Origin: Candidatus Poribacteria bacterium
GTDB lineage: Bacteria > Poribacteria > WGA-4E > WGA-3G
Reading direction: 5' to 3'
Assembly: GCA_003635255.1 (NCBI GenBank)
Contig: PYJC01000136.1
Coordinates: 1-64,000 of the forward strand
Length of the DNA stretch: 64,000 nucleotides
Shown: piece by piece, positions 47,055 to 61,309 of the stretch
Layout: every line of letters begins with the position of its first letter
Numbering within the stretch: the first letter of the stretch is position 1
Translations under genes and position numbers: made by a program
The notes under the pieces: generated by a model
The model's input: only the letters and a program-made list of their open reading frames with translations
Told to the model about the DNA's origin: nothing
Database searches by the model: none

Positions 47055-48140
47055 TTAAATCTCCGGCACTCTCACTGCCACCTCTTTCCCGGCTGCATGT
47101 GAACGGAAGATACCGTCCATAATTACATTCGTGAGCAGAACACCCTCTGGTGGTATCGGCGATGGTCCGTCCGCTTTGACACCTTCTCGGAATTCGATCA
47201 TCTGTGTTGCCCAGTTATCAGATTGGGGAAACCCAGAGAACTGGATCGTCGTCATCCCTTCTGGCGGATTCGGTTCGGCTGTTAATCCTTCCGATTCGAC
47301 AAACTTCTTGAGCTCACCGTCATACGCATCCGCATAAATAACCGGTCCCCCCAACGAGAACCCCGCTTTCGTTCCAAGATGGAAGTTTCCACCGAGCGAG
47401 TCCTGATGCACCGCCCAAGAGATTTTGAACACCATCACGCCACCATTTTCAAACCGCACCCATGCCGCACCGAACTCTTCAACATCCATGATCCCCTTAA
47501 ATCTCGGATCTTGCTGCGAGATATAATCCTCGGTAATCGCGGAGACCCGCACCGGTTTCGGGTATCCCATCGCATACAGCGAAGCGTGCATGTTGTAAAC
47601 ACCGATATCGACGGTCGCGCCGGCACCTGCGGTCTTTTTGTAGATGAACGTATGTCCAGGGTTCCCGCGTCGTCGGCATCCTGCGGATTCAGAATAGTAG
47701 ATGTCGCCGAACAATCCCGCGTCGAACGCCTTTCTTATGAACTGGAGCCTCGGATCAAACGTCGGATTGAGACCGATCTGTAAGATTTTGCCCGATGCCT
47801 TTGCTGCCTGCACCATTGCTGTTGCATCGGAAAGCGTCGCTGCCATCGGTTTCTCACAGAGGACGTGCTTACCGGCGTTCAGTGCTGCGACGGTAGGTCG
47901 CCGATGCCCCTGATTGTAAGTGCAAACACTCACCGCATCAAGCCCGTCCATTTCGAGCATCTTGTTGTAACTTGAAAAAGCGTTCTTTCTGGGGACACCC
48001 CACTCGTCAGCAGCTTGGTTCGCCTTGCTTTTGATGATGTCGCAGACCGCGACGATCTCGAAACCACCGACTTTCTCGTATGTACTCCGGTGCGCCCGTG
48101 AAATGCCACCTGTACCAATAATACCAACTCGGACAGTCAT
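47055..48140 (-). CDS. Gfo/Idh/MocA family oxidoreductase (copy A)
   Basis: 'VGIIGTGGISRAH', 'KHVLCEKPMAATLSDA'. Confidence 0.92.
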   Translation of the reverse strand: MTVRVGIIGTGGISRAHRSTYEKVGGFEIVAVCDIIKSKANQAADEWGVPRKNAFSSYNKMLEMDGLDAVSVCTYNQGHRRPTVAALNAGKHVLCEKPMAATLSDATAMVQAAKASGKILQIGLNPTFDPRLQFIRKAFDAGLFGDIYYSESAGCRRRGNPGHTFIYKKTAGAGATVDIGVYNMHASLYAMGYPKPVRVSAITEDYISQQDPRFKGIMDVEEFGAAWVRFENGGVMVFKISWAVHQDSLGGNFHLGTKAGFSLGGPVIYADAYDGELKKFVESEGLTAEPNPPEGMTTIQFSGFPQSDNWATQMIEFREGVKADGPSPIPPEGVLLTNVIMDGIFRSHAAGKEVAVRVPEI

Positions 48141-48276
48141 ATTGTTACCTCCTCATAATCAATTTATGGTGAAATATGAAAATATTAGGATCTACGCATA
48201 ACCGAGGTATTCTCGATGGAAGATGGAAGAAACGGAAGAATGGTGGAACCTCTTCCACGCTTCCAGTCTTCCTATG

Positions 48277-48302
48277 AGGAAACACCCCAGCAAAAACACT
48301 TC
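48277..48302. repeat. Dispersed repeat GAGGAAACACCCCAGCAAAAACAC
   Basis: Matches 39187 and 62050. Confidence 0.65.
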
Positions 48303-48347
48303 CAATCCTGCAACAACTTGCTGATGGCTGCGGGTTGCTGACGGCTT

Positions 48348-49433
48348 TTAAATCTCCGGTACTCTCACAGCGATCTCTTTACCCGCTGCATGTGAACGGA
48401 AAATACCGTCCATAATTACATTCGTGAGTAGGACACCCTCTGGGAGTATCGGCGATGGCGTATCCGCTTTGACGGCTTCACGGAACGCCGTTATCTGTGC
48501 TTGCCAGACATCGACCTCTGGGAATCCAGAGAACTGGATCGTCGTCATCCCTTCCGGCGGGTTCGCTTCTGCGGTGAGTCCTTCGGATTTGACAAGTTTC
48601 TTCAGGTCATTTGTATAAGCATCGGCATAGACAACCGGTCCGTTCAGAGAAATACCTGCTTCTTTACCGAGACAAAAACTCGGACCCAACGAATCCTGAT
48701 GCACTACCCAAGAGATTTTGAATACCATCACACCCCCATTGTCAAACCGGACCCATGCGACACCGAACTCTTCAACGTCCATGATCCCCTTAAATTGCGG
48801 ATCTTGCTGTGAGATGCAATCCTCGGTAATCGCGGAGACACGCACTGGTTTTGGATACCCCATCGCATACAACGAATCGTGCATATTGTAGACACCGACA
48901 TCTACGATTGCGCCGGCACCTGCGGTCTTTTTGTAGATGAATGTACGTCCCGGATTCCTGCGTCGACTCCCGCCTGTAGATTCAGAATAATAGATGTCGC
49001 CGAGCAGCCCTGAATCGATCACCTTCTTAGCGAATTGGAGTCTCGGATTAAAAGTGCTGTGGATACCGATTTGCAAGATTTTGCCGGACGCTTTCGCGGC
49101 GCGGACCATTGCGGTCGCATCTGGGAGTGTCGCTGCCATCGGTTTCTCACAAAAGACGTGTTTACCGGCGTTCAACGCGGCCACTGTTGGACGGCGATGG
49201 CCTTGGTTGTAAGTGCAAACGCTGACCGTATCGATTTCGTCCATCTCAAGCATCTTGTTGTAGCTGGTGAAGACGTGTTTTCTGGGGACACCCCACTTAT
49301 CGGCAGCTTCATTCGCCTTGCTTTTGACGATGTCGCAGACCGCGACGATCTCGAAACCGCCTACTGCCGTATAAGTCCTGTGGTGTGCACGTGAGATACC
49401 ACCTGTACCCACGATACCGACTCGAATCGTCAT
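48348..49433 (-). CDS. Gfo/Idh/MocA family oxidoreductase (copy B)
   Basis: Same length (361 aa) and highly similar to copy A. Confidence 0.92.
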   Translation of the reverse strand: MTIRVGIVGTGGISRAHHRTYTAVGGFEIVAVCDIVKSKANEAADKWGVPRKHVFTSYNKMLEMDEIDTVSVCTYNQGHRRPTVAALNAGKHVFCEKPMAATLPDATAMVRAAKASGKILQIGIHSTFNPRLQFAKKVIDSGLLGDIYYSESTGGSRRRNPGRTFIYKKTAGAGAIVDVGVYNMHDSLYAMGYPKPVRVSAITEDCISQQDPQFKGIMDVEEFGVAWVRFDNGGVMVFKISWVVHQDSLGPSFCLGKEAGISLNGPVVYADAYTNDLKKLVKSEGLTAEANPPEGMTTIQFSGFPEVDVWQAQITAFREAVKADTPSPILPEGVLLTNVIMDGIFRSHAAGKEIAVRVPEI

Positions 49434-49612: not shown

Positions 49613-50794
49613 TCATACTTCTCGATCAAGCTCAATTTGTTCAAGCTTCATCACATACGCTGAATCAATAATGCTCTTCCCTATTTCAAAGTGTCCGTCG
49701 CTGAATGCAGCATAGATAGCGTTACGGCATCGTTTATTAATGTTACGAGGTGTTTTGTTCTCTAAGTCCTCTAAAAGCATTTCTAAGGCTGTTAGATCAA
49801 ATGGGTAAGTCTCAGGAAGCCCTTCTGGTAGAAGAGATTTGTCGCGGTATTGAGGATGATTGATGAGTTCACTTACATATTCCACTGCTTCATTCAGATC
49901 TAATTCAGGAAAATAAATAACATCAGTGATACGGTCTAGCAAAGCACCACCTAAAATCACATTGAATTCCTCATATGCTTCGGGGTCCGCAAGGGTCATA
50001 TTCAGAAAAAGCGTGAAGAAATTGGGAAGTCGATCTATCAAGTCCCGGAGGCCTTGTGTCACAATGCGGAACTGAGAAGAAGTAAGATAAATTAGGTCCT
50101 CTATCTCATCAACCCAAAGACAGACGCGTGAATGTTGAGACTTTTCTTGGCTTGGATTTAGTCCAATTAGACATTGTAGGACACCTGCTAGTACTCGAAA
50201 TCGATCCTGTGATTTGCTAATGTTCCGTGCTATACCAAGTTTTCTCAACTCAGTCCGGGTACAACCCTCTAAAAAGTACGCTCGCAATAAAGCTTGTTTT
50301 TCGCCTGTATTCTCTGTCCCAAATAACCAGAAGGCACGTGCTAATTCTTCACTACCAAGAACCGTTTGGAGCAGTTTCATTGCTTCCGCCTCGGATAACT
50401 GGCAGACGGACTCTCGAATAATTTTGTGAACATAACTCATACCTAATGTGTCAAGGATGTCAATATAGAAATCCTCAGCGGGTTTTCCAGGATCCTTTGG
50501 GGCACAAATGTTTATTTGGTGAATTGGAGTTTCGCTGGTCGGTATTGAAGATAAGTATTTATCGCTGGCAAAGTAGATTGCAGCGTGAGTTTTCCCACCG
50601 CCGTAAAGTCCTCGGTTGAGAACAACTTGAGTAGCAGAATCGGAAACTGCGACTTTAAAGATTTCATCAAATTGCCGTTTTACTCCCTCCATTCCGGCCC
50701 AAATGACCTGTTCAGAATCTACTGGTGGTGTCAGATCAAAAGGATTCTTTTTTAAAAAAATATAACCCCAATTGAATTTACTAATCATTGTCAA
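49613..50794 (-). CDS. AAA+/ORC-like P-loop ATPase, third gene of Dnd-adjacent triad
   Basis: 'NPFDLTPPVDSEQVIWAGMEGVKRQFDEI', Walker A 'NRGLYGGGKTHAA', Walker B 'VCLWVDEIEDLIYL'. Confidence 0.75.
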   Translation of the reverse strand: MTMISKFNWGYIFLKKNPFDLTPPVDSEQVIWAGMEGVKRQFDEIFKVAVSDSATQVVLNRGLYGGGKTHAAIYFASDKYLSSIPTSETPIHQINICAPKDPGKPAEDFYIDILDTLGMSYVHKIIRESVCQLSEAEAMKLLQTVLGSEELARAFWLFGTENTGEKQALLRAYFLEGCTRTELRKLGIARNISKSQDRFRVLAGVLQCLIGLNPSQEKSQHSRVCLWVDEIEDLIYLTSSQFRIVTQGLRDLIDRLPNFFTLFLNMTLADPEAYEEFNVILGGALLDRITDVIYFPELDLNEAVEYVSELINHPQYRDKSLLPEGLPETYPFDLTALEMLLEDLENKTPRNINKRCRNAIYAAFSDGHFEIGKSIIDSAYVMKLEQIELDREV

Positions 50795-51450
50795 CTCCTT
50801 GTTTTCGGGTAAGCTGGTAATTGGGAAAGGGTCTTGTTAATTTCTTTCAATTTGCTATGATAGCACTCAAACCTTTTTGTTGGGATACCTCTTTGACCAC
50901 CCAGACGACTATTGATATCTCTTAATACTCCCTCAGCTATTTGAAAGCGAAATCTATTCCAATGTCTGGTAAAAAGATACAAGACGAAATCAAGAGATGA
51001 CCAGATTTTTCCGATCCTAAAAGTGTCAAACACTTGAAACAAAAAACCATCCTGTTTTGAATCAGTCGTTTTCAATTCATCAGTTAGAAAAATTACTTGG
51101 CGATATTTTCCACTTAGAACTGCCTCCAACGCTACGCAACAATTATGTCGCTCTCCTCGATCTCCTCTATTGTCTAAATTCGGGTAGAAGGACTGCAGGA
51201 AAGCTTTTTCCAATTTATCAATTGGCACTTGAAAGCTCCATTTTGATCTATTGCATTGCTTTTGAATGTTACCTTTAGCTAGTATTTGGTGGGATTGAAT
51301 CTCATCACAGATTGTCTTACTTAATTTAACATCAAATTCCTTCCATAGCCAAAGCCGAAGATCATCGTTGATCACTTCAATATCACGCATGTGGATAAGT
51401 GAATTTGTATCAGGTATACATAGTAACGCTGAAGTTTGTATATTATGCAT
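50791..51450 (-). CDS. PIN-like nuclease domain protein, second gene of triad
   Basis: 'LCIPDTNSLIHMRDIEVINDDLRLWLWKEFDVKLSKTICDEIQSHQ' and 'VIFLTDELKTTDSKQDGFLFQVFD'; overlaps both neighbours. Confidence 0.65.
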   Translation of the reverse strand: MHNIQTSALLCIPDTNSLIHMRDIEVINDDLRLWLWKEFDVKLSKTICDEIQSHQILAKGNIQKQCNRSKWSFQVPIDKLEKAFLQSFYPNLDNRGDRGERHNCCVALEAVLSGKYRQVIFLTDELKTTDSKQDGFLFQVFDTFRIGKIWSSLDFVLYLFTRHWNRFRFQIAEGVLRDINSRLGGQRGIPTKRFECYHSKLKEINKTLSQLPAYPKTRS

Positions 51451-52561
51451 GTCTCCTCACAAGATAGGATTCGTTTTCCCGAGCTGATATTTTAGCTTCA
51501 TATTTATAGTTTTCCAATGTCCGCGGTTCCTGAAACCATTGAATGAGATCTCCAAGGTTTGTAAGTATATGTAACTGTGTTACTAAACGAATACATAGAT
51601 ACATCGCTCCTTGCGTGAGAGGGATCTTTGGAATGCTTCTCCGAAATTCATTAAACGCTATAGGAAGGTATTGTTTACAAGCTTCTCGGCGAACCTCATC
51701 ATCAACGTCTTGCCACTGCCGAAAATCAGGTGCAGAAATCATGAGTGGACTGATGTCTGAAAAAAACTGGGCACTAAACCATGCATCTGTAACATCAGAT
51801 ATATTAGGATTTTTCAATTTTTGGAAGGTTTTTGTCAAATTCTGCCCAGTTTCCGTAAGTTGATAAATAAAACTATTTTTTTCTTTTCTTAAATCTAGCA
51901 ACCCAAGATCTAAAAGCCAGTGTAAACGAGGCGGAATGATGTAAGCAGCATAACCTTCGGGCTTTTTCCATTCTGTCGTAACCTCAACCTGTCTGTCATG
52001 TAAGCGATTTACGATGTGTCCTTGTGAACTTGTCGAAATTTTTGCTTTGAGGCGGTCTAGAAAAGCCTGTTGAAAATTCTTTTGTAAATTTTTGAGACTG
52101 GGGTTCTCAAGCGATTGGAGCATATTGACGATAGTTAGCAGCGTATCAGCATCTTGCTGTAGGATCTGGTAGATGTAAAAAATTCTTTCATCGTGATCAA
52201 GATATAATGAGTTTAATTCATTGTTAGGTTTATCGTTGAGCAGACTCAAGAGAACGCGTCCAATTCTTGTTAATTGATAAACATTTGATATTTTGGAGAG
52301 TAATCCGAATTTAACAGTTAAGTCAAGATAACTAGTACTTAATAAAGTCATCCCTTTTTTCTCTAGGGAGTGTATCGTCCCTGTATGGTATTTATAATTT
52401 TCAAGGCTGTTTGCCTGAGTATTGCTCCAATCTTTTAATTTACTCACGAAAATATCTTCATTCAATGGACGTTCTCCTACAAGTCGTAAAATTTGCGATA
52501 GGTACCTAAGTCTGCGGACGAGTGAGCTGGAGACTACAATCTCACGATAAGAAATTTTCAT
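51443..52561 (-). CDS. Winged-helix-like protein, first gene of triad
   Basis: Leu-rich wHTH-like segments 'YLDLTVKFGLLSKISNVYQLTRIGRVLLSLL' and 'LHWLLDLGLLDLRKEKNSFIYQLTETGQNLTKTF'. Confidence 0.6.
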   Translation of the reverse strand: MKISYREIVVSSSLVRRLRYLSQILRLVGERPLNEDIFVSKLKDWSNTQANSLENYKYHTGTIHSLEKKGMTLLSTSYLDLTVKFGLLSKISNVYQLTRIGRVLLSLLNDKPNNELNSLYLDHDERIFYIYQILQQDADTLLTIVNMLQSLENPSLKNLQKNFQQAFLDRLKAKISTSSQGHIVNRLHDRQVEVTTEWKKPEGYAAYIIPPRLHWLLDLGLLDLRKEKNSFIYQLTETGQNLTKTFQKLKNPNISDVTDAWFSAQFFSDISPLMISAPDFRQWQDVDDEVRREACKQYLPIAFNEFRRSIPKIPLTQGAMYLCIRLVTQLHILTNLGDLIQWFQEPRTLENYKYEAKISARENESYLVRRHA

Positions 52562-52882: not shown

Positions 52883-54292
52883 ATGGCAGAAGCACCGTAC
52901 ACCATCTTCAATTCGCGCACTGTTGATGATATCCACCGCGAAATTCAAGAAGTCTATCTTGAAAACGCAAGACCGTGGGTTATTGGGTACAGCGGTGGAA
53001 AAGATTCAACGACCGCCCTGCAACTCGTTTGGGATGCCCTCGCTGGCCTGTCGTCAGAACAACGGAAGTACCCAGTCTATGTGATTTCGTCCGATACACT
53101 TGTTGAAACACCAGTTATTGTTAGTTACATTACTGGGACTTTAGATCGGATCAAGATGACCGCGCGCAAAGAGAAGATGCCATTTGAGACCTCGCTTGTA
53201 TATCCAAAAACTGAGGACACTTTCTGGGTTTCTCTCATAGGTAAGGGTTATCCGGCACCGTATAATCGTTTGCGTTGGTGCACGGACAAAATGAAAATTC
53301 GACCTGCCAATAGATTTATCTTAGAAAAAGCTTCTGAATATGGGGAAGTTATCCTTGTACTTGGCGTGCGTAAAGGCGAAAGTGCTACACGCGACCAAGT
53401 AATGAACCTACATCAAACTAAAAATTCGTTACTTTTGCGGCATAGTTCACTTCCTAACGCATTTGTTTATGCACCAATCGTTGATTTTAGTCTTAACGAT
53501 GTTTGGATGTATTTATTAAGTAACCCTCCGCCGTGGGGTGGAGATCATAGACAACTTGTTACACTCTACCGAAACGCTAATGGACAAGGGGAGTGTCCTC
53601 TGGTTGTTGATGAGACAACTCCATCCTGTGGTAACAGTCGATTTGGGTGTTGGACTTGTACCGTTGTTTCTAGTAGTCATTCAATGGAGGGATTAATTGA
53701 CAGTGGTGAAGATTGGATGCTACCATTGCTGGAGTTTCGAGAGATCCTCATGGAGACTCAAGTCCCTGAGAGAAAGGCGAATGTTCGCGAACATAAACGG
53801 CGCAACGGTAGAATTACAAGAGATAAAGACACTGGCAAATTAGTACGTGGTCCCTATACCCTTGAATTTTGTAAGGAACTTTTAAGAAAGCTTCTCGAAA
53901 CTCAACAGAAAGTTCGTTCGATAGGACCTGATCCGAATATTGAGCTTATCACACATGCAGAACTTGAGGAAATTCGCAAAATTTGGCGGACAGAGCGCCA
54001 AGATTGGGAAGATGCGGTGCCACAGATTTATGCGGATGTTATTGGTGAGTATGAATGGATTATTGATGATACAACATCCTTTTCAGCAGCAGATAAGGTG
54101 TTATTGTCTTCAATTTGCAATGAAAAGAAAATCCCTGTCACCCTTGTGGCGAAATTGTTGGATACAGAGCGACAAATGGATGGAATGAGTCGGCGGGCAA
54201 GAATCCAATCTCAAATTGATGCGGTTTTCAGTGAAGATTGGGAATCAGAAGAAGAGATCCTCGCTACCCTAAGTGTTAATAATCAACAATGA
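52883..54292 (+). CDS. dndC: DNA phosphorothioation protein DndC (PAPS reductase-like)
   Basis: 'WVIGYSGGKDSTTALQLVWDAL', 'LRWCTDKMKIRP', 'GNSRFGCWTCTVV'. Confidence 0.93.
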   Translation: MAEAPYTIFNSRTVDDIHREIQEVYLENARPWVIGYSGGKDSTTALQLVWDALAGLSSEQRKYPVYVISSDTLVETPVIVSYITGTLDRIKMTARKEKMPFETSLVYPKTEDTFWVSLIGKGYPAPYNRLRWCTDKMKIRPANRFILEKASEYGEVILVLGVRKGESATRDQVMNLHQTKNSLLLRHSSLPNAFVYAPIVDFSLNDVWMYLLSNPPPWGGDHRQLVTLYRNANGQGECPLVVDETTPSCGNSRFGCWTCTVVSSSHSMEGLIDSGEDWMLPLLEFREILMETQVPERKANVREHKRRNGRITRDKDTGKLVRGPYTLEFCKELLRKLLETQQKVRSIGPDPNIELITHAELEEIRKIWRTERQDWEDAVPQIYADVIGEYEWIIDDTTSFSAADKVLLSSICNEKKIPVTLVAKLLDTERQMDGMSRRARIQSQIDAVFSEDWESEEEILATLSVNNQQ

Positions 54293-56313
54293 TCCTTCAT
54301 AAACTTACTCTCAACAATGTTGGTTTGTTCAGTAAACCACAAACTGCTCACCTTACACCAAACAATGGCAAACCTTTAATCCTGATCGGAGGGATGAACG
54401 GTACTGGTAAAACAACATTGTTGGAAGCTGTTCGTCTCTGTCTGTATGGTCGCCGAGCACTGGGATCTCGAGTTAGCCAGAATGAATACAATGAGTTCCT
54501 TGCTAAAATGATTCACAGGAACCCTAATTCAGTATTGTCGCCCGAGCAAGCGTCTGTGTCCCTTGAATTTGAATACGCTCGTAACAATGAAAAAAGGCAG
54601 TTTCGCGTTGAACGATCTTGGCAACGTTATGGTACTGTCGGCAATATTAAAGAAGTACTAACAATATACGAGAATGATGAGTTAAACACTGAATTTGACG
54701 CAGAGCATTGGCAGGACTACCTTTATGAACTGATTCCAATCGGAGTATCCCAATTTTTCTTTTTTGACGGTGAGGATATACAGAAATTGACAGACGATTC
54801 CACCCACGATTTTTCTCTCGCTGAGTCAATTAAAGCACTACTTGGAATTAACTTAGTGGAGCGATTACAATCAGATCTGCGTATCTATGCTAATCGTCTG
54901 TTCAAAAGTAATAGTCCTGAACCAGTCCAAACAGAGATTGAGACGATAGAAGCAGAAATCGCCACACTTAGGACATCGCTTACGGATGCGGAGGCACACA
55001 CGGTATCACTGCACACTCAAATTAAGGAACTAGAAGCACAGATTGCGAGACAAGAATCCCGCATCGCTGCAGAAGGCGGAAGTTATGCAGAAAAACGAGA
55101 GAGCTTGAAACTTCAACAGGAGCAGCTGTGCACTGAAATTGAAGAATTAGAAAATGAGATTCGTGATCTATGTGGAGAACTGTTTCCGTTTGCGCTAGGA
55201 TCTGATCTGCTTAAACGGTTGAGAAAACGACTCCTTAAAGAGATTGAATTAGGCGAATGGGAATCGCGAAATCGCGCTTTAAAAACCCAGAATAAGAAAC
55301 TTCTTGAGACCCTTGAATCTGGAACATTTTGGGACGATGCCTCCTTATCAGAATCACAAATTGAAATAGTTCGGTCCAAGATTGCGCCGCTTTTAAAAAT
55401 GCAACTCGAGCGTCCAGAGAAATTGCAAGCGTTCAAAAAAAAACGAGACCGCTCCATCTCAGAGTACAATCAACTGTTAAAGTGGATTGATGCTTGTCTC
55501 AACGATGTTCCCCAAAAATTTAGGACATTGGACCATACCTTGAGGGAAATACAGTTAGAACAACAAAGAGTAGAACAGGCTCTTCAGAGAGCACCAGACG
55601 AAGATATCCTGAAACCAATGATTGAAAATCTATCGTCATTAAATCAGAGTCTCGGACAATTACGCAAACAGGAGCAAGATGCTGACAGATCAATCCGTTC
55701 TTTAAATTACCAGTTAGCGGAAACGGAACGAAAACTACAAAGACTACATAATACTGAGCAATTAAGAGAAACAAACATTCAACGCCAAAAACAGGTAGAG
55801 GATGTGCAATCGGTCCTTTCTATTTATACCACTAAACTTACAGAAACAAAAATTGTGACATTGGGTAATGCTATCGTTGAAGGGTTTAATCAGCTTTCCC
55901 ATAAACCTGATCGAATTAAGCGGGTTGAACTTGACCCACGGACCTTTGCAGTCAAACTCTATGATACCGACAATCAACCGCTTTCAAAGGAAGAATTATC
56001 CGCGGGTGAAAAACAGATCTATTCAACTGCCCTACTATGGGGATTAGCAAAAACATCTGGCAAAGCACTACCAATGATTCTTGACACACCGCTTGGACGT
56101 TTAGATAGCAATCATCGTCAACTCCTAATTGAGCGTTATTTTCCCTATGCCAGCCATCAGGTGATCCTACTCTCAACCGATACCGAAATTGACAAGTCTT
56201 TCCTATCGTTATTGGAACCACATCTCTCACACACGCTTCATTTAGTGTATCAACAGGCTGAAACTCGTACGACTATAGAAGATGGGTATTTTGGAGAATT
56301 ATTATGCGATTAA
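54289..56313 (+). CDS. dndD: DNA phosphorothioation ATPase DndD (SMC/SbcC-like)
   Basis: Overlaps the dndC stop; 'LILIGGMNGTGKTTLLEAVRLCLYGRRALG', 'FFFFDGEDIQKL', 'ELSAGEKQIYSTALLWGLAKTSGKALPMILDTPLGRLDSNHR'. Confidence 0.92.
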   Translation: MILHKLTLNNVGLFSKPQTAHLTPNNGKPLILIGGMNGTGKTTLLEAVRLCLYGRRALGSRVSQNEYNEFLAKMIHRNPNSVLSPEQASVSLEFEYARNNEKRQFRVERSWQRYGTVGNIKEVLTIYENDELNTEFDAEHWQDYLYELIPIGVSQFFFFDGEDIQKLTDDSTHDFSLAESIKALLGINLVERLQSDLRIYANRLFKSNSPEPVQTEIETIEAEIATLRTSLTDAEAHTVSLHTQIKELEAQIARQESRIAAEGGSYAEKRESLKLQQEQLCTEIEELENEIRDLCGELFPFALGSDLLKRLRKRLLKEIELGEWESRNRALKTQNKKLLETLESGTFWDDASLSESQIEIVRSKIAPLLKMQLERPEKLQAFKKKRDRSISEYNQLLKWIDACLNDVPQKFRTLDHTLREIQLEQQRVEQALQRAPDEDILKPMIENLSSLNQSLGQLRKQEQDADRSIRSLNYQLAETERKLQRLHNTEQLRETNIQRQKQVEDVQSVLSIYTTKLTETKIVTLGNAIVEGFNQLSHKPDRIKRVELDPRTFAVKLYDTDNQPLSKEELSAGEKQIYSTALLWGLAKTSGKALPMILDTPLGRLDSNHRQLLIERYFPYASHQVILLSTDTEIDKSFLSLLEPHLSHTLHLVYQQAETRTTIEDGYFGELLCD

Positions 56314-56666
56314 ACCGCATTCAAATATCTGAGGATTCCCGCAATAAATTGAGCATCCTGAAAGGTCGCACTGGGTTACTGCCGAATGTTCTTAGTAGAA
56401 TTGGGTTGGTGCTCTCGCTTGCTGAATCCAGCGAACCGGTAATTGATGCGGATCCAACAGATGGATCCGATTTTAACCGCTTCACACTGATGGGAGAATG
56501 GGATTCGTTGATTGTAGCACTATTGGAGGAACGAGGAAGTACTAACGGCATGAACATGGATAATGATACCCTTGTTAAGTACTTCCGGGCTCACCTAAAT
56601 CGAGGAGTTCTATTGCTTTACAGCCGTGTAAAAGGGCTTGAGGATCTGGCGAATCTTCTGCCTTGA
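56304..56666 (+). CDS. dndE: DNA phosphorothioation protein DndE
   Basis: Overlaps dndD; 'KLSILKGRTGLLPNVLSRIGLVLSLAE...FRAHLNRGVLLLYSRVK'. Confidence 0.88.
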   Translation: MRLNRIQISEDSRNKLSILKGRTGLLPNVLSRIGLVLSLAESSEPVIDADPTDGSDFNRFTLMGEWDSLIVALLEERGSTNGMNMDNDTLVKYFRAHLNRGVLLLYSRVKGLEDLANLLP

Positions 56667-56670
56667 AATT

Positions 56671-57135
56671 CTATTGGACTGAGGGAATTATATCACTATA
56701 TGGTTCCCAGTTTAAGAGTAGATTAACTAAATTTTCAACTCTGTTACCAGGTGCATCTTCAACTTGTTCTTTAATCACAATAATTCCACCATTAGCGTAC
56801 CCCTCTGCAATACTTTGTATTTCCTTTTCATTCAATAACACTTCTGGACTCCCAGTTTTAGCAAGTGCCAAGGTACGAAGAAGGGACATGTCACCTTCTT
56901 TTAGGGTAGTTCTGGGGAAGATATTTCGCAAATTCTTTTCCAAGGGCACCCATTTTTCCTCAAGGCATCCAATCAACGCAGCCAACATAAATATGTATTT
57001 CATCTCCCTAAAAGGAGGGTATTTCTCATCCTCTTGGGATTTTCTTAAGTCTTCATAGAGTTGATGATACGACGAATCAATATTGATAAAATCTCGTGGT
57101 TGATCGGTTGTATTGATCTCAATATCTTTAGGCAT
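56671..57135 (-). CDS. Small Dnd-system-associated protein (dnd_assoc_4-like)
   Basis: 154 aa; 'FREMKYIFMLAALIGCLEEKWVPL...LLRTLALAKTGSPEVLLNEKEIQSIAEGYANGGI'; convergent with dndE. Confidence 0.6.
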   Translation of the reverse strand: MPKDIEINTTDQPRDFINIDSSYHQLYEDLRKSQEDEKYPPFREMKYIFMLAALIGCLEEKWVPLEKNLRNIFPRTTLKEGDMSLLRTLALAKTGSPEVLLNEKEIQSIAEGYANGGIIVIKEQVEDAPGNRVENLVNLLLNWEPYSDIIPSVQ

Positions 57136-57150
57136 TTATATGTTCCTTTC

Positions 57151-59082
57151 TCATTCAATTCGTTTGATAGTAGTGACACTTATCTCGTCGTCAAAACATA
57201 ACTCGTATTCTGTCCCGATTCGTGGTTCAAGGTTTCTCCATGCTTGCTCATCAGGTCTCAGTTCTTGATCTGTAACAAATAAAATCAGTTGATTAGCAAT
57301 CGCTGGAATATTTTCTGTGATGTTTTCTTTTGGTTTGTCAGAGAGTTTCGTAAAAGGAGCATCCATTACAATTGGGAAACGTTCCGCGGGTATATCGGGC
57401 AATTTTTCCTTAACTGCTACTTTTGCTAATGCCGCAATGAAGGCTAGACTCAAAACTTCACGTTCCCCCGCAGATATTTCAGAGCTGACTTGTCCATCGT
57501 ATCGGTCAATAACTTGAAGTTCGTAATCCAAACTAAAACGCACCTCACGAAATGAATTTTCCTTCCAAATTAGCCTCTTGAAAATATTACTGACTTCATT
57601 TTCAAGATTTCTTCGGATATTCTCTTCATGTGGTTCATACAATTTTTTCATTGCTGCTGCTGATTCCATAGCAAGCCGCCGACAGCGATTTAGGCGTTCT
57701 GCATCAACTTTCAAAGATTCTGCTTTATCAATTTCCTTATCTAATGCCTCTATTTCCATCTTGATTTCACGGATTTTTTCTTTGATCTGATTAATTTCCC
57801 CCTCTAAAAATCTAATCTCTCCAGTGTATTTATCCTGAGCGTTTTTATGCTTCTGAAAATCGTCGTCATCGAAATTTTGAAGGCTCCCTTTAATTTCCTC
57901 TAAACGTGCCTCATTTGCCTCAATACTCTTATCCAAGCGTTGTTCTTCACTCAATGTTGATTTAACATCAACAGGGATATTTTCAACCTTACCTTCTAAC
58001 AATCGCTTTAAACTATTTTCTGTTTCTCTTGCAGCAACACCAAACTCAGGAGAAACATTTTGCGAAATCAAATTCTGAATATGTTTATACTCAGAGCTCC
58101 CTTGATGGATAGACCGCCCACAGAGACAATACATTTGTTCAAGTATTTCATTCAAGACAGTCTCCGGGATACCGATTGGTGCTTTGCTACTTTGAAGAAT
58201 TTTTAATGCTTTTTGTATAACAGGTTTTGCTAAGGGGATATAACCATCATTGGCGAGTTCTCGAATTTTGACCTGATATTTTTCTTTTTCATTCATGTGG
58301 TGTTTGAGATCCATTATAATTTTCTTTTCTTCTTCAAAAAGTTGACGAGTGTCCTCATATTCTTGAAGTACTTTATCTATGTCCTGTTTATGCTTACGCG
58401 CAATTTTGATTTTTTCCAACCTATCGTCAACCTTTTTTCTTTCACTGAGACAGAGTGCTTCTTTTTCCTCTTTTTCATTAATTAATATCTTCAATTTGTC
58501 AGGCACATATCTTTTGAGTTTGCTCTGATAATTTTGAGCCACTTTTTCTAAATGGGTAATACCACGTTCAAACAGTTCTATTCTTAGAACATTGCGCACG
58601 GCACTCTTAATTTCTTCTTCATTTCCTTGTCTGGCAAAATTATCGATTTTTTCCCCATCAAAGAAAAAGTGGGCACTTACATCCTCCGGGATCATAGAAC
58701 GAATCTTATCTGATGCTGCAGCATCCAGATCTGGAGGCTCATTCTCTTTTTGCAGCAAAAGAGTCGTTTTATCATTGCGTAGAGATCGGCATTTTCGCAA
58801 TACTCGGTACCTAATATTCTGATCAACAATGCCTATTTCTACAGAAGTATCAGCGTTTTCTGCCTGTGCCACAACACGTCTATTTACGAATTCACGAGTG
58901 TTTCCTTTAAAAAAAGAATCTCCGTACAGACACCAGTTGAGGGCAGTAAGTAGAGAGGTTTTCCCTGTCCCGTTGATCCCTCTAATAACAGTTACATTAC
59001 AATATTCATCAGTCGCAAAGTGGATAGTTTGCTCATCATAATATGGACAGAAATTTTTCAACTTAATATAACGAAATATCAT
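57151..59082 (-). CDS. Second SMC/DndD-like AAA ATPase
   Basis: 'MIFRYIKLKNFCPYYDEQTIHF...VIRGINGTGKTSLLTALNWCLYGDSFFKG', 'AHFFFDGEKIDNFA', 'EISAGEREVLSLAFIAALAKVAVKEKLPDIPAERFPIVMDAPFTKLSDKPKEN'. Confidence 0.85.
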   Translation of the reverse strand: MIFRYIKLKNFCPYYDEQTIHFATDEYCNVTVIRGINGTGKTSLLTALNWCLYGDSFFKGNTREFVNRRVVAQAENADTSVEIGIVDQNIRYRVLRKCRSLRNDKTTLLLQKENEPPDLDAAASDKIRSMIPEDVSAHFFFDGEKIDNFARQGNEEEIKSAVRNVLRIELFERGITHLEKVAQNYQSKLKRYVPDKLKILINEKEEKEALCLSERKKVDDRLEKIKIARKHKQDIDKVLQEYEDTRQLFEEEKKIIMDLKHHMNEKEKYQVKIRELANDGYIPLAKPVIQKALKILQSSKAPIGIPETVLNEILEQMYCLCGRSIHQGSSEYKHIQNLISQNVSPEFGVAARETENSLKRLLEGKVENIPVDVKSTLSEEQRLDKSIEANEARLEEIKGSLQNFDDDDFQKHKNAQDKYTGEIRFLEGEINQIKEKIREIKMEIEALDKEIDKAESLKVDAERLNRCRRLAMESAAAMKKLYEPHEENIRRNLENEVSNIFKRLIWKENSFREVRFSLDYELQVIDRYDGQVSSEISAGEREVLSLAFIAALAKVAVKEKLPDIPAERFPIVMDAPFTKLSDKPKENITENIPAIANQLILFVTDQELRPDEQAWRNLEPRIGTEYELCFDDEISVTTIKRIE

Positions 59083-59249
59083 GATACATCAATTTCCTTT
59101 TCAATAATTCTCTGAATATCTTCAATAATACCACGAGGATTTCGGAGATGCTGCTTTTGACGTTCGGCTATAAGCACCTTACGAATTACGCTTTTTACAT
59201 GATCGGTTAAGTCCGTATCTGACTTGGATAATTGTTTTTCTTCTTTCAT
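59079..59249 (-). CDS. 56-aa small protein inside the Dnd-associated operon (absent from the ORF track)
   Basis: Hand-translated MKEEKQLSKSDTDLTDHVKSVIRKVLIAERQKQHLRNPRGIIEDIQRIIEKEIDVS*; TGATG overlap with the upstream helicase stop and overlap with the downstream ATPase start. Confidence 0.75.
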   Translation of the reverse strand: MKEEKQLSKSDTDLTDHVKSVIRKVLIAERQKQHLRNPRGIIEDIQRIIEKEIDVS

Positions 59250-61309
59250 CAAGTTTCTCCTAATACCCCTAAAAGATTGTAGTTCTTAGCAAGTTCCCAT
59301 ATTTTATCACGTGCCTCAAATTTGTTTAAAGCCATTCCAGCGAATTCGTTAAATCTCTCTAATTCCCGCGCAACAATTTTCCGCTCTGTGCGAAATGTTG
59401 CGGTTGGATATTGCCGGTAATCTATAGGTGGTACAGCGATTAGATCGTGGATCTCTGCGTGTTCTTTACCGGAGGACTGACGGAGAATTCGTCCTCGCCG
59501 CTGGATAAATTCTTTTGGGTTACTACTGCTCGCAAGGATGTAAGCCGTTCGAGTGCTTGGGACATCAACGCCTTCATCCAGACACTTCATTGCTACAAGA
59601 GCCTGAAGATGTCCAGACGCGAACATCTTTAACAGTTCTTGTCTTTCAGCAGCTGATTCTTCCGCTGTAAATTTTGCAACACGTAATCCTAAATCTGTTA
59701 ACAATTCAAGAACTGGAACGATTCGCCCAGGAGCACAATAAAACAACGTATGATGCAGTGAGTCAGTTTGGTCAGTTAACAATTCTGTTAACTTTGCTAA
59801 CTTGTTTTCGGCTCGGTTGAGTAGCGTCGCTCGTTTTATCAATAACCGTTCGAGTGCTTCACTTGTCTCACCAGATTCTGTCTGATGATAAAGTTTGGAA
59901 ATACTTTCTGTGAGACGTTCGTACGCTTCAAATTCTTCATCAGTCAATTCAACGAGATGTGGATGATAATAGTAAGGACAGAGATACCCGTTTTTAATTG
60001 CTTTGTCCAGAGAAAATTCGTAAACTGTATCTCCAAAATAGGTCTGGAGTGCAGTTGTACCTGATGCGTCAAACCAGCGGTTAGGTGTTGCTGACAAGCC
60101 GAGACGGTAATCAAAAATATCGGTTAATCTTTTGCGGCTCCGTTCTGCTCCAAGATGGTGAACCTCATCTGCTACCAAAACAGCACCACGCTTCAACTTG
60201 GATAGCAATTTCTGCATGGTCTCAGCAATAAAAGTAGTTTGTGTTGTAATCGTACAGACAACATCTCGAACACCATAATTATATCGCACTAAGGCGGTGT
60301 TAAGCCGATTCACCCAACTTTTGGAACTTTTGTATGCAAGGATCGGTTCAAATCCGAATCTGATAGCCTCTTCATACCACTGATCGACGAGGTGCTGATA
60401 TGGACACGCAATAACTACAAACAAATTTTCCTTTTCTTCCCTCAGTTTAGCAAGCGCGGAAAGAGCCGTAATAGTCTTACCAGTTCCGGTTGCCATCTCC
60501 CATAAACCACGGCATTCGTTTTCAAACCAAGCCTCAATCGCTTCAGATTGATATTTCCTTAGTACTATGTCTTTTGGCAAATAGGGAACGATCTGCTCAA
60601 TTATTTCGGGTTTATCTGTTGTCTCTACTTGTCCGGTTTCATACACTGTTTGGTGGATTAAAAGTTTTTCCGCAACAGCGTTCAGAAAGTCTATTACCTC
60701 CAACTTCTCCGTGTTATTATCCCACAACCTCGCAAAATTATCTACCTTTTGTTGGACGCGTTCTTGAGCATCATCCCACGACCAATGAACATCAATAGAT
60801 TCAAAATTGTTTAACAAACCGCCGACAGTTTCGTTCGATGAACCTGAAAATGCTACGGCGTTGTTATTATCATCTAAAAAGACTCCTGTTTTTTCGTGAT
60901 AAACAGCGTGCTGATAATTTGTGCTTAAATCGAAGGGAGATGCGATTTTAATGTCTAAATGCTCATGTGCAATTAGCCAAGTGAGCAACATTAACCTATC
61001 GTGGGAAACTTTCTCAAAATCGCAATCAAGGGAGGTATCTAAATTCTGTTCTCTTTCTTCGTAACCGCGTTGAATCGCTTCAATATCGTCGGACATTAAT
61101 TTAGGCCCCGTTACTAAACTCATTTGTCCGCCATGTCGAATAAAAGTGGATAATCCTCTCACATTTAGGGCAAGCCCATTGCTGGTAAAATAGGCTACTG
61201 CTCGCCAATATTGCGTAGCATTTTTCAGACACGGGGTATAAAAATCTGTGACGAGGTTAGCTCCATCGGAGCGATATTCATATTGCAACGAGAGTTCTTG
61301 GAGTGACAT
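59249..61309 (-). CDS. SF2 helicase with PLD-like N-terminus, probable Dnd-system restriction protein
   Basis: 'WEMATGTGKTITALSAL', 'VADEVHHLGAERS', 'RRGRILRQSSGKEHAEIHDLI'; N-terminal PLD-like 'HAVYHEKTGVFLDDNNNAVAFSGSSNETVGGLLNNFES'. Confidence 0.82.
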   Translation of the reverse strand: MSLQELSLQYEYRSDGANLVTDFYTPCLKNATQYWRAVAYFTSNGLALNVRGLSTFIRHGGQMSLVTGPKLMSDDIEAIQRGYEEREQNLDTSLDCDFEKVSHDRLMLLTWLIAHEHLDIKIASPFDLSTNYQHAVYHEKTGVFLDDNNNAVAFSGSSNETVGGLLNNFESIDVHWSWDDAQERVQQKVDNFARLWDNNTEKLEVIDFLNAVAEKLLIHQTVYETGQVETTDKPEIIEQIVPYLPKDIVLRKYQSEAIEAWFENECRGLWEMATGTGKTITALSALAKLREEKENLFVVIACPYQHLVDQWYEEAIRFGFEPILAYKSSKSWVNRLNTALVRYNYGVRDVVCTITTQTTFIAETMQKLLSKLKRGAVLVADEVHHLGAERSRKRLTDIFDYRLGLSATPNRWFDASGTTALQTYFGDTVYEFSLDKAIKNGYLCPYYYHPHLVELTDEEFEAYERLTESISKLYHQTESGETSEALERLLIKRATLLNRAENKLAKLTELLTDQTDSLHHTLFYCAPGRIVPVLELLTDLGLRVAKFTAEESAAERQELLKMFASGHLQALVAMKCLDEGVDVPSTRTAYILASSSNPKEFIQRRGRILRQSSGKEHAEIHDLIAVPPIDYRQYPTATFRTERKIVARELERFNEFAGMALNKFEARDKIWELAKNYNLLGVLGET

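Follow-up and report, generated by a model that had tools for sequence, protein, structure and literature searches.

A PbeABCD cassette beside dndCDE in a Poribacteria genome, with a PbeB probably homologous to the DndC tail

PbeABCD was described by Xiong and colleagues as an antiviral system that depends on phosphorothioate (PT) modification and halts virus replication, all four of its genes being needed for this block in an archaeal host (PMC6459918). In that study viral DNA remained intact and no cleavage was seen, and deletion of dndCDEA with pbeABCD present caused no growth defect. In the re-description by Rakesh and colleagues, the same system is one of CxC ATPase type that combines a DndE cognate with an HKD nuclease (PMC10853773). 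The small protein PbeB was treated differently by the two groups: one called its function unknown (PMC6459918), the other considered it largely disordered and suggested that it may regulate negatively (PMC10853773). DndFGH resembles PbeABCD in serving Dnd PT modification as a restriction partner, but its proteins are unrelated.

Gene content and identity of the operon

A 64,000-nucleotide stretch of a Candidatus Poribacteria genome (the window) was analysed. The initial annotation had listed four minus-strand ORFs with overlaps or short gaps, converging on dndE, and all were found at 56671-61309. Together with the dnd genes that they face, they are:

pbeA, 59249..61309, minus strand: 686 aa; N-terminal HKD/PLD-type nuclease domain and XPB/type I-III-like SF2 helicase; presumed effector
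pbeB, 59079..59252, minus strand: 57 aa counted from TTG, 56 aa from the next ATG; very probably homologous to the tail at the C terminus of DndC that docks on DndD; presumed to be the subunit that docks on the PbeC head
pbeC, 57151..59082, minus strand: 643 aa; CxC (zinc-hook) ABC-ATPase, sister of DndD
pbeD, 56671..57135, minus strand: 154 aa; DndE-like small protein, related to dnd_assoc_4
dndC, 52883..54292, plus strand: sulfurtransferase; residues 407-449 are the docking tail to which PbeB is probably homologous
dndD, 54289..56313, plus strand: canonical DndD ATPase without a CxC hook
dndE, 56304..56666, plus strand: match to TIGR03184 over its cut-off

Overlaps of 4 nt join pbeA to pbeB and pbeB to pbeC, a gap of 15 nt separates pbeC from pbeD, and 4 nt lie between the stop of pbeD and the end of dndE, so that the pbe and dnd operons converge head-on. 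The order pbeA-pbeB-pbeC-pbeD recurs both in further Poribacteria and on plasmids from other phyla; the arrangement is therefore not a product of chance. A PbeA scan of the genome collection gave seven close relatives, and the broader diversity was taken from plasmids.

PADLOC identified PbeA (E 4.6e-247) and PbeC (E 2.8e-112) among the window's proteins. The four genes had originally been read as Dnd-linked; that reading was borne out and can be made more exact, as the whole set is the published PbeABCD system. The TIGR Dnd-associated families proposed as a check do match, but with scores under their curated cut-offs (TIGR04095, 565 against 600 bits; TIGR04062, 46 against 74 bits), the NCBIfam names being dnd_restrict_1 for PbeA and dnd_assoc_4 for the 154-aa protein. 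The window's own PbeB had no match in PADLOC, Pfam or NCBIfam and was recognised by its position and its homologs. Because PbeB evolves fast and most of its relatives likewise miss existing models, this was not counted as defining. Linkage to a PT writer, which characterises PbeABCD, is present: DndC (TIGR03183, 553 bits, cut-off 290), DndD (TIGR03185, 524 bits, cut-off 246) and DndE (TIGR03184, 82 bits, cut-off 72) all score above curated cut-offs. We conclude that the operon is almost certainly a complete PbeABCD cassette; in itself it is an ordinary, already known system in a new genome.

The system of Haloterrigena jeotgali A29 (PMC6459918) has the same four genes in the same order beside dndCDE, with a small PbeB, a PbeD of about 150 aa, a PLD-SF2 PbeA and an SMC-like PbeC. 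The window differs in being bacterial, in the convergent rather than tandem operon, in having no dndA at the locus and in an additional divergent trio of genes beyond dndC. With the CxC ABC-ATPase systems (PMC10853773) it shares the CxC hook, the DndE cognate, the HKD-SF2 nuclease and the small protein. dndF, dndG and dndH are all absent from the window's locus; a search for DndH (dnd_assoc_2) gave no match in the window's genome, an assembly 82% complete, nor in control genomes. On a Lactiplantibacillus plasmid a whole PbeABCD-like cassette is duplicated in tandem (L135:1382-13787).

No cysteine desulfurase DndA was found at the dnd locus. The genome has two IscS/NifS-like matches at 404-411 bits, under the DndA cut-off of 480, and IscS may substitute for DndA. 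The same genome also encodes sspB-sspC-sspD (G000:C95, L185:3580-9013) and thus two PT writers, with a weak DndB-like match beside sspBCD at C95:1541-2188.

The initial annotation had taken the second ATPase for an SMC-like paralog distinct from DndD, citing the motifs HFFFDGEKI and ISAGERE. The motifs were confirmed in the 643-aa PbeC (HFFFDGEKI at residue 138, SAGERE at residue 537), which also has a Walker A at 35-43 and a CLCG hook at 319-322. Its separateness held as well: in a tree of the head domain, in which the row 'RecNlike_G000_C71' (a DnaA-looking ORF) was disregarded, all 27 DndD rows group together (SH-aLRT 99) to the exclusion of the window's PbeC. Given its hook, the protein called 'SMC-like' is better read as a CxC ABC-ATPase (PMC10853773); CxCG occurs in 28/28 PbeC and 0/27 DndD. 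The fold relatives of PbeC are Rad50, and a generic Rad50/SbcC repair ATPase was ruled out by the CxC hook, the PADLOC match and the tree. Clustering with generic repair proteins, which would have spoken against a Dnd-linked module, was not seen. The second ATPase is neither DndD nor Rad50 but a CxC (zinc-hook) protein that is sister to DndD.

PbeD resembles DndE, the profiles of the two matching at E 2.4e-4 over 120 columns. PbeA carries the HKD residues H138 and K140, with GSxN at 156. Pfam found ResIII, Helicase_C and a weak PLDc_2 in it, and its nearest solved folds are XPB/Rad25. HxK and GSxN are invariant in all 31 PbeA relatives, in which the core helicase motifs are also kept. DNA cutting by PbeA is disputed, intact viral DNA (PMC6459918) standing against the conserved nuclease motif (this analysis; PMC10853773). 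The conservation of HxK/GSxN argues for catalysis, without telling which DNA would be cut.

PbeB and the C-terminal tail of DndC

A Pfam scan of the window's DndC gave an unexpected match to Sp-DndD (PF20306), a family of small proteins, at residues 407-449. The tails of all 28 collected DndC proteins match this family (best E 2.5e-11). A profile was made from DndC tails and two Sp-DndD sequences and searched over the 9,609 ORFs of all loci, and 32 PbeB proteins were gathered by position, nearly all of them immediately 5' of pbeC. After DndC itself, only PbeBs were retrieved until E 0.63, the best at 1.7e-5 and the window's own at 0.016. The reciprocal search with a PbeB profile found DndC next, with the best stretch always at the same position in the C-terminal tail. 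When 14 PbeBs were subjected to a shuffle test, 10 real scores were never reached and two were equalled by 1/500 shuffles; the PbeBs of L125 and L127 gave no significant DndC-tail signal, in the shuffle test or otherwise. Comparison of PbeB with DndC by hhalign gave E 3.7e-4; for eight other families E was no better than 0.095.

The archaeal PbeB of Natribaculum (L133) passes the Sp-DndD threshold (6.7e-8), and the PbeB of L140 falls in another Pfam family, Sp-CxC. The window's PbeB had no match to PF20306 at E 0.05, and we therefore call it a homolog of the DndC tail rather than a member of PF20306. What the two proteins share is a homologous segment of 30-45 residues with the same hydrophobic/E spacing; they differ in that the DndC tail is fused to a sulfurtransferase, whereas PbeB has no catalytic domain. 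The tail also exists as a gene of its own. Plasmids of Burkholderia glumae and Aureimonas carry split DndC sets (L143:2956-4288 and L147:2953-4300), in which a short DndC without the tail (375 and 379 aa) is followed first by a separate Sp-DndD gene of 70-71 aa and next by DndD.

In Escherichia coli B7A, DndC attaches to the globular head of DndD through residues 433-482, and the substitutions L458D/E462A/R471A break this binding (PMC12193691). Mapped by spacing only, the 4- and 9-residue intervals of the B7A residues fit L425/E429/R438 of the window's DndC and V26/E30 of its PbeB, and less well R40, which requires a one-residue gap. L425, E429 and R438 are invariant across 28 aligned DndCs, the glutamate varying in more distant ones; among PbeBs the position equivalent to R471 is not conserved and is R, Q or K. 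Taken together, these comparisons make it very probable that PbeB is a homolog of the DndD-docking tail of DndC, and probable, with somewhat less confidence, that it docks on the head of PbeC. The link appears to be new; an earlier mention is possible in the 2020 first description of CxC systems.

A predicted reader and its alternatives

The explanation that we regard as best, and as likely, is that the locus holds a complete PbeABCD beside its PT writer DndCDE, with PbeBCD as the reader and PbeA as the effector. DndCDE would mark host DNA, with sulfur probably supplied by a housekeeping cysteine desulfurase because there is no dndA at the locus. By homology PbeB corresponds to the DndC tail, PbeC to DndD and PbeD to DndE, from which we infer a scanning reader built like DndCDE minus its catalytic part. 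In such a complex PbeC would supply the ABC-ATPase and PbeD, like DndE, the contact with DNA, with PbeB as a short docking element seated on the PbeC ATPase head as the DndC tail is on DndD. Lacking the sulfurtransferase, it would scan DNA as DndCDE does and read instead of writing. It would check sites for the PT mark and steer PbeA, in which an HKD nuclease is joined to an SF2 translocase, to unmarked incoming DNA. This division of labour, in which PbeBCD reads and PbeA acts, we hold to be somewhat better than an even proposition. Strict co-evolution of reader and writer was considered as well; it is weakened by the loci L092 and L093, whose DndCDE are similar (74-86% aa identity) and whose PbeBCD are very different (39-41%).

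A first alternative concerns the action of PbeA. PbeABCD might be an abortive-infection or replication-blocking device, whose HKD domain either cleaves the cell's own DNA when a virus triggers it or does no more than grip DNA. The intact viral DNA of the archaeal study (PMC6459918) favours such a device, and suicide action has been raised as an alternative (PMC10853773). Against it, the invariance of HxK and GSxN in 31/31 PbeA argues for catalysis, though it says nothing about the target DNA. We regard this reading as possible, at clearly less than even chances.

The published view of PbeB leads to a second alternative, namely that PbeB, for the most part disordered, regulates negatively or senses a viral trigger and is not a structural subunit of PbeC (PMC10853773). 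A small, fast-evolving protein would suit that role, as the published prediction holds, but PbeB is recognisably homologous to a docking segment of known binding function. It was moreover needed for archaeal protection (PMC6459918), and loss of a pure negative regulator should not abolish protection. The regulator reading is consequently improbable. No more credit is due to a switch in which writer and reader swap subunits, either because PbeB competes for DndD with the tail of DndC or because that tail seats on PbeC: PbeB is homologous to the DndC tail and DndD and PbeC are sister ATPases, but pbeB overlaps pbeC, is co-inherited with pbeC and pbeD (pairwise-identity r 0.95-0.98) and accompanies pbeC also in Ssp-linked loci with no DndCDE nearby.

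Inheritance and neighbourhood of the cassette

Nucleotide identities between the window and G063, G076, G068 and G083 fall into two classes. pbeA is 85-87% identical, within the range of the flanking genes (81-88%); pbeC and pbeD are 58-60% identical and dndCDE 67-73%. Between the window and G052 (L088), pbeA, pbeC, pbeD and dndCDE all lie at 77-85%. Identity steps from about 50% to >90% between 59240 and 59300, at the end of pbeA. In the PbeC tree, placing the window among sequences of the other type is rejected (p-AU 2e-7). In the PbeA tree neither grouping is significantly preferred and the clade of window and G052 is not rejected (p-AU 0.30), so that topological proof of recombination in PbeA was not reached and the mosaic rests on the identity step and not on conflicting topology. 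pbeA thus diverges like flanking chromosomal genes, and the comparison suggests that pbeBCD and dndEDC form a divergent allele, a pattern that appears to be new. The simplest reading of these sequences is that the pbeBCD-dndEDC block was replaced beside a pbeA already in place. That pbeBCD and dndCDE simply evolved faster, with no allele exchange, is unlikely: the conflict of PbeA topology is not significant and PbeC evolves about twice as fast as PbeA between the window and G052, but the PbeC/PbeA distance ratio rises from about 2 in that pair to about 10 between the window and G063, and the step falls within about 60-100 nt at a gene border.

Two Gfo/Idh-type genes (47055-49433 in the window, and their relatives) flank the dnd locus in many Poribacteria, which suggests that the site is a fixed chromosomal hotspot for PT systems. 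The interval between dndE and pbeD, empty in the window and G052, is a variable cargo slot in L085, L086, L087, L089, L091, L092 and L093. Its contents are a DndB-like protein, a partial DndB-like match, an HATPase with an unknown gene, or an HTH gene.

A second Poribacteria type of Pbe lies directly 3' of sspD in L094, L095, L097 and L099-L101, and a few kb away from it in L098; most of these loci have the whole sspB-sspC-sspD set. SspB, SspC and SspD were assigned by PADLOC in L100 and by similarity in the other loci. Pbe is likewise paired with Ssp writers (SspBCD or SspD) on Rhizobium and Sphingomonadaceae plasmids (L132, L134). No report of the pairing was found in the literature searched.

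The trio beyond dndC consists of:

T3, 51443..52561, minus strand: winged-helix protein, divergent from dndC
T2, 50791..51450, minus strand: PIN-like, by motif only
T1, 49613..50794, minus strand: AAA+ ATPase, weakly ORC/TnsC/BrxC-like

T2 has the invariant residues D14, E50 and E100, with D124 in most members, and T1 the motifs GGGKT and LWVDE. AlphaFold2 models, to be taken as fold hints only, gave a wHTH fold for about 132-252 of T3 (Z about 9; mean pLDDT 68) and a best Z of 6.4 to ORC, TnsC and Cdc6 for T1 (mean pLDDT 56). None of the families passes a cut-off in Pfam, NCBIfam or PADLOC; weak matches to BrxD (E 0.041) and LmuC (E 0.0015) were not accepted as names. T1 and T2 had no match to a solved structure by sequence, and a search for relatives of the trio in plasmids, phages and IMG/VR found nothing.

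Relatives of T1 and of T3 each occur in 11 of the 84 Poribacteria genomes. In all nine evaluable loci (the window, L085, L086, L088, L105-L107, L110 and L153), T3 is directly divergent from the first PT-writer gene, dndC in four and sspB in five. In a tenth locus, of G005, an SspB-like gene lies downstream on the same strand, and the locus of G053 is truncated where its contig ends. Identity to the window's T1 is 63-70% for the Dnd-linked copies and 43-44% for the Ssp-linked ones. G065 is without the PIN gene and G073 keeps T3 only. At L107:8679-9911 the start of T1 carries residues resembling the start of the PIN protein, which fits a loss of that gene in frame in G065. Tested against the main Pbe type over 84 genomes, the Dnd-linked trio subtype gave a Fisher p of 3e-4, a value that ignores kinship.

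The PT writer SspABCD offers a broad parallel to T3 and T1: SspB contains wHTH modules, and SspC resembles ORC (PMC10853773). In contrast, T1 and T3 are not SspC and SspB by family search, and the trio includes a PIN-like protein in addition. Its position next to two unrelated PT writers suggests that the role of the trio is tied to PT. We give even chances to its being a third, undescribed PT module, an effector or a regulator, that serves DndCDE or SspBCD.

The trio is hence a candidate for a new PT-linked module beside the dnd locus, and the mosaic suggests that PbeA is an effector that can be exchanged. For PbeABCD itself, the relation to the DndC tail makes its sensing of phosphorothioate testable: PbeB, required and without a known role, gains a predicted partner surface, and two of its residues (V26 and E30) correspond to DndC residues that belonged to the triple mutant in which DndD binding was broken. 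If PbeBCD is indeed a DndCDE-like reader, one architecture would be common to the writer and the reader of PT.
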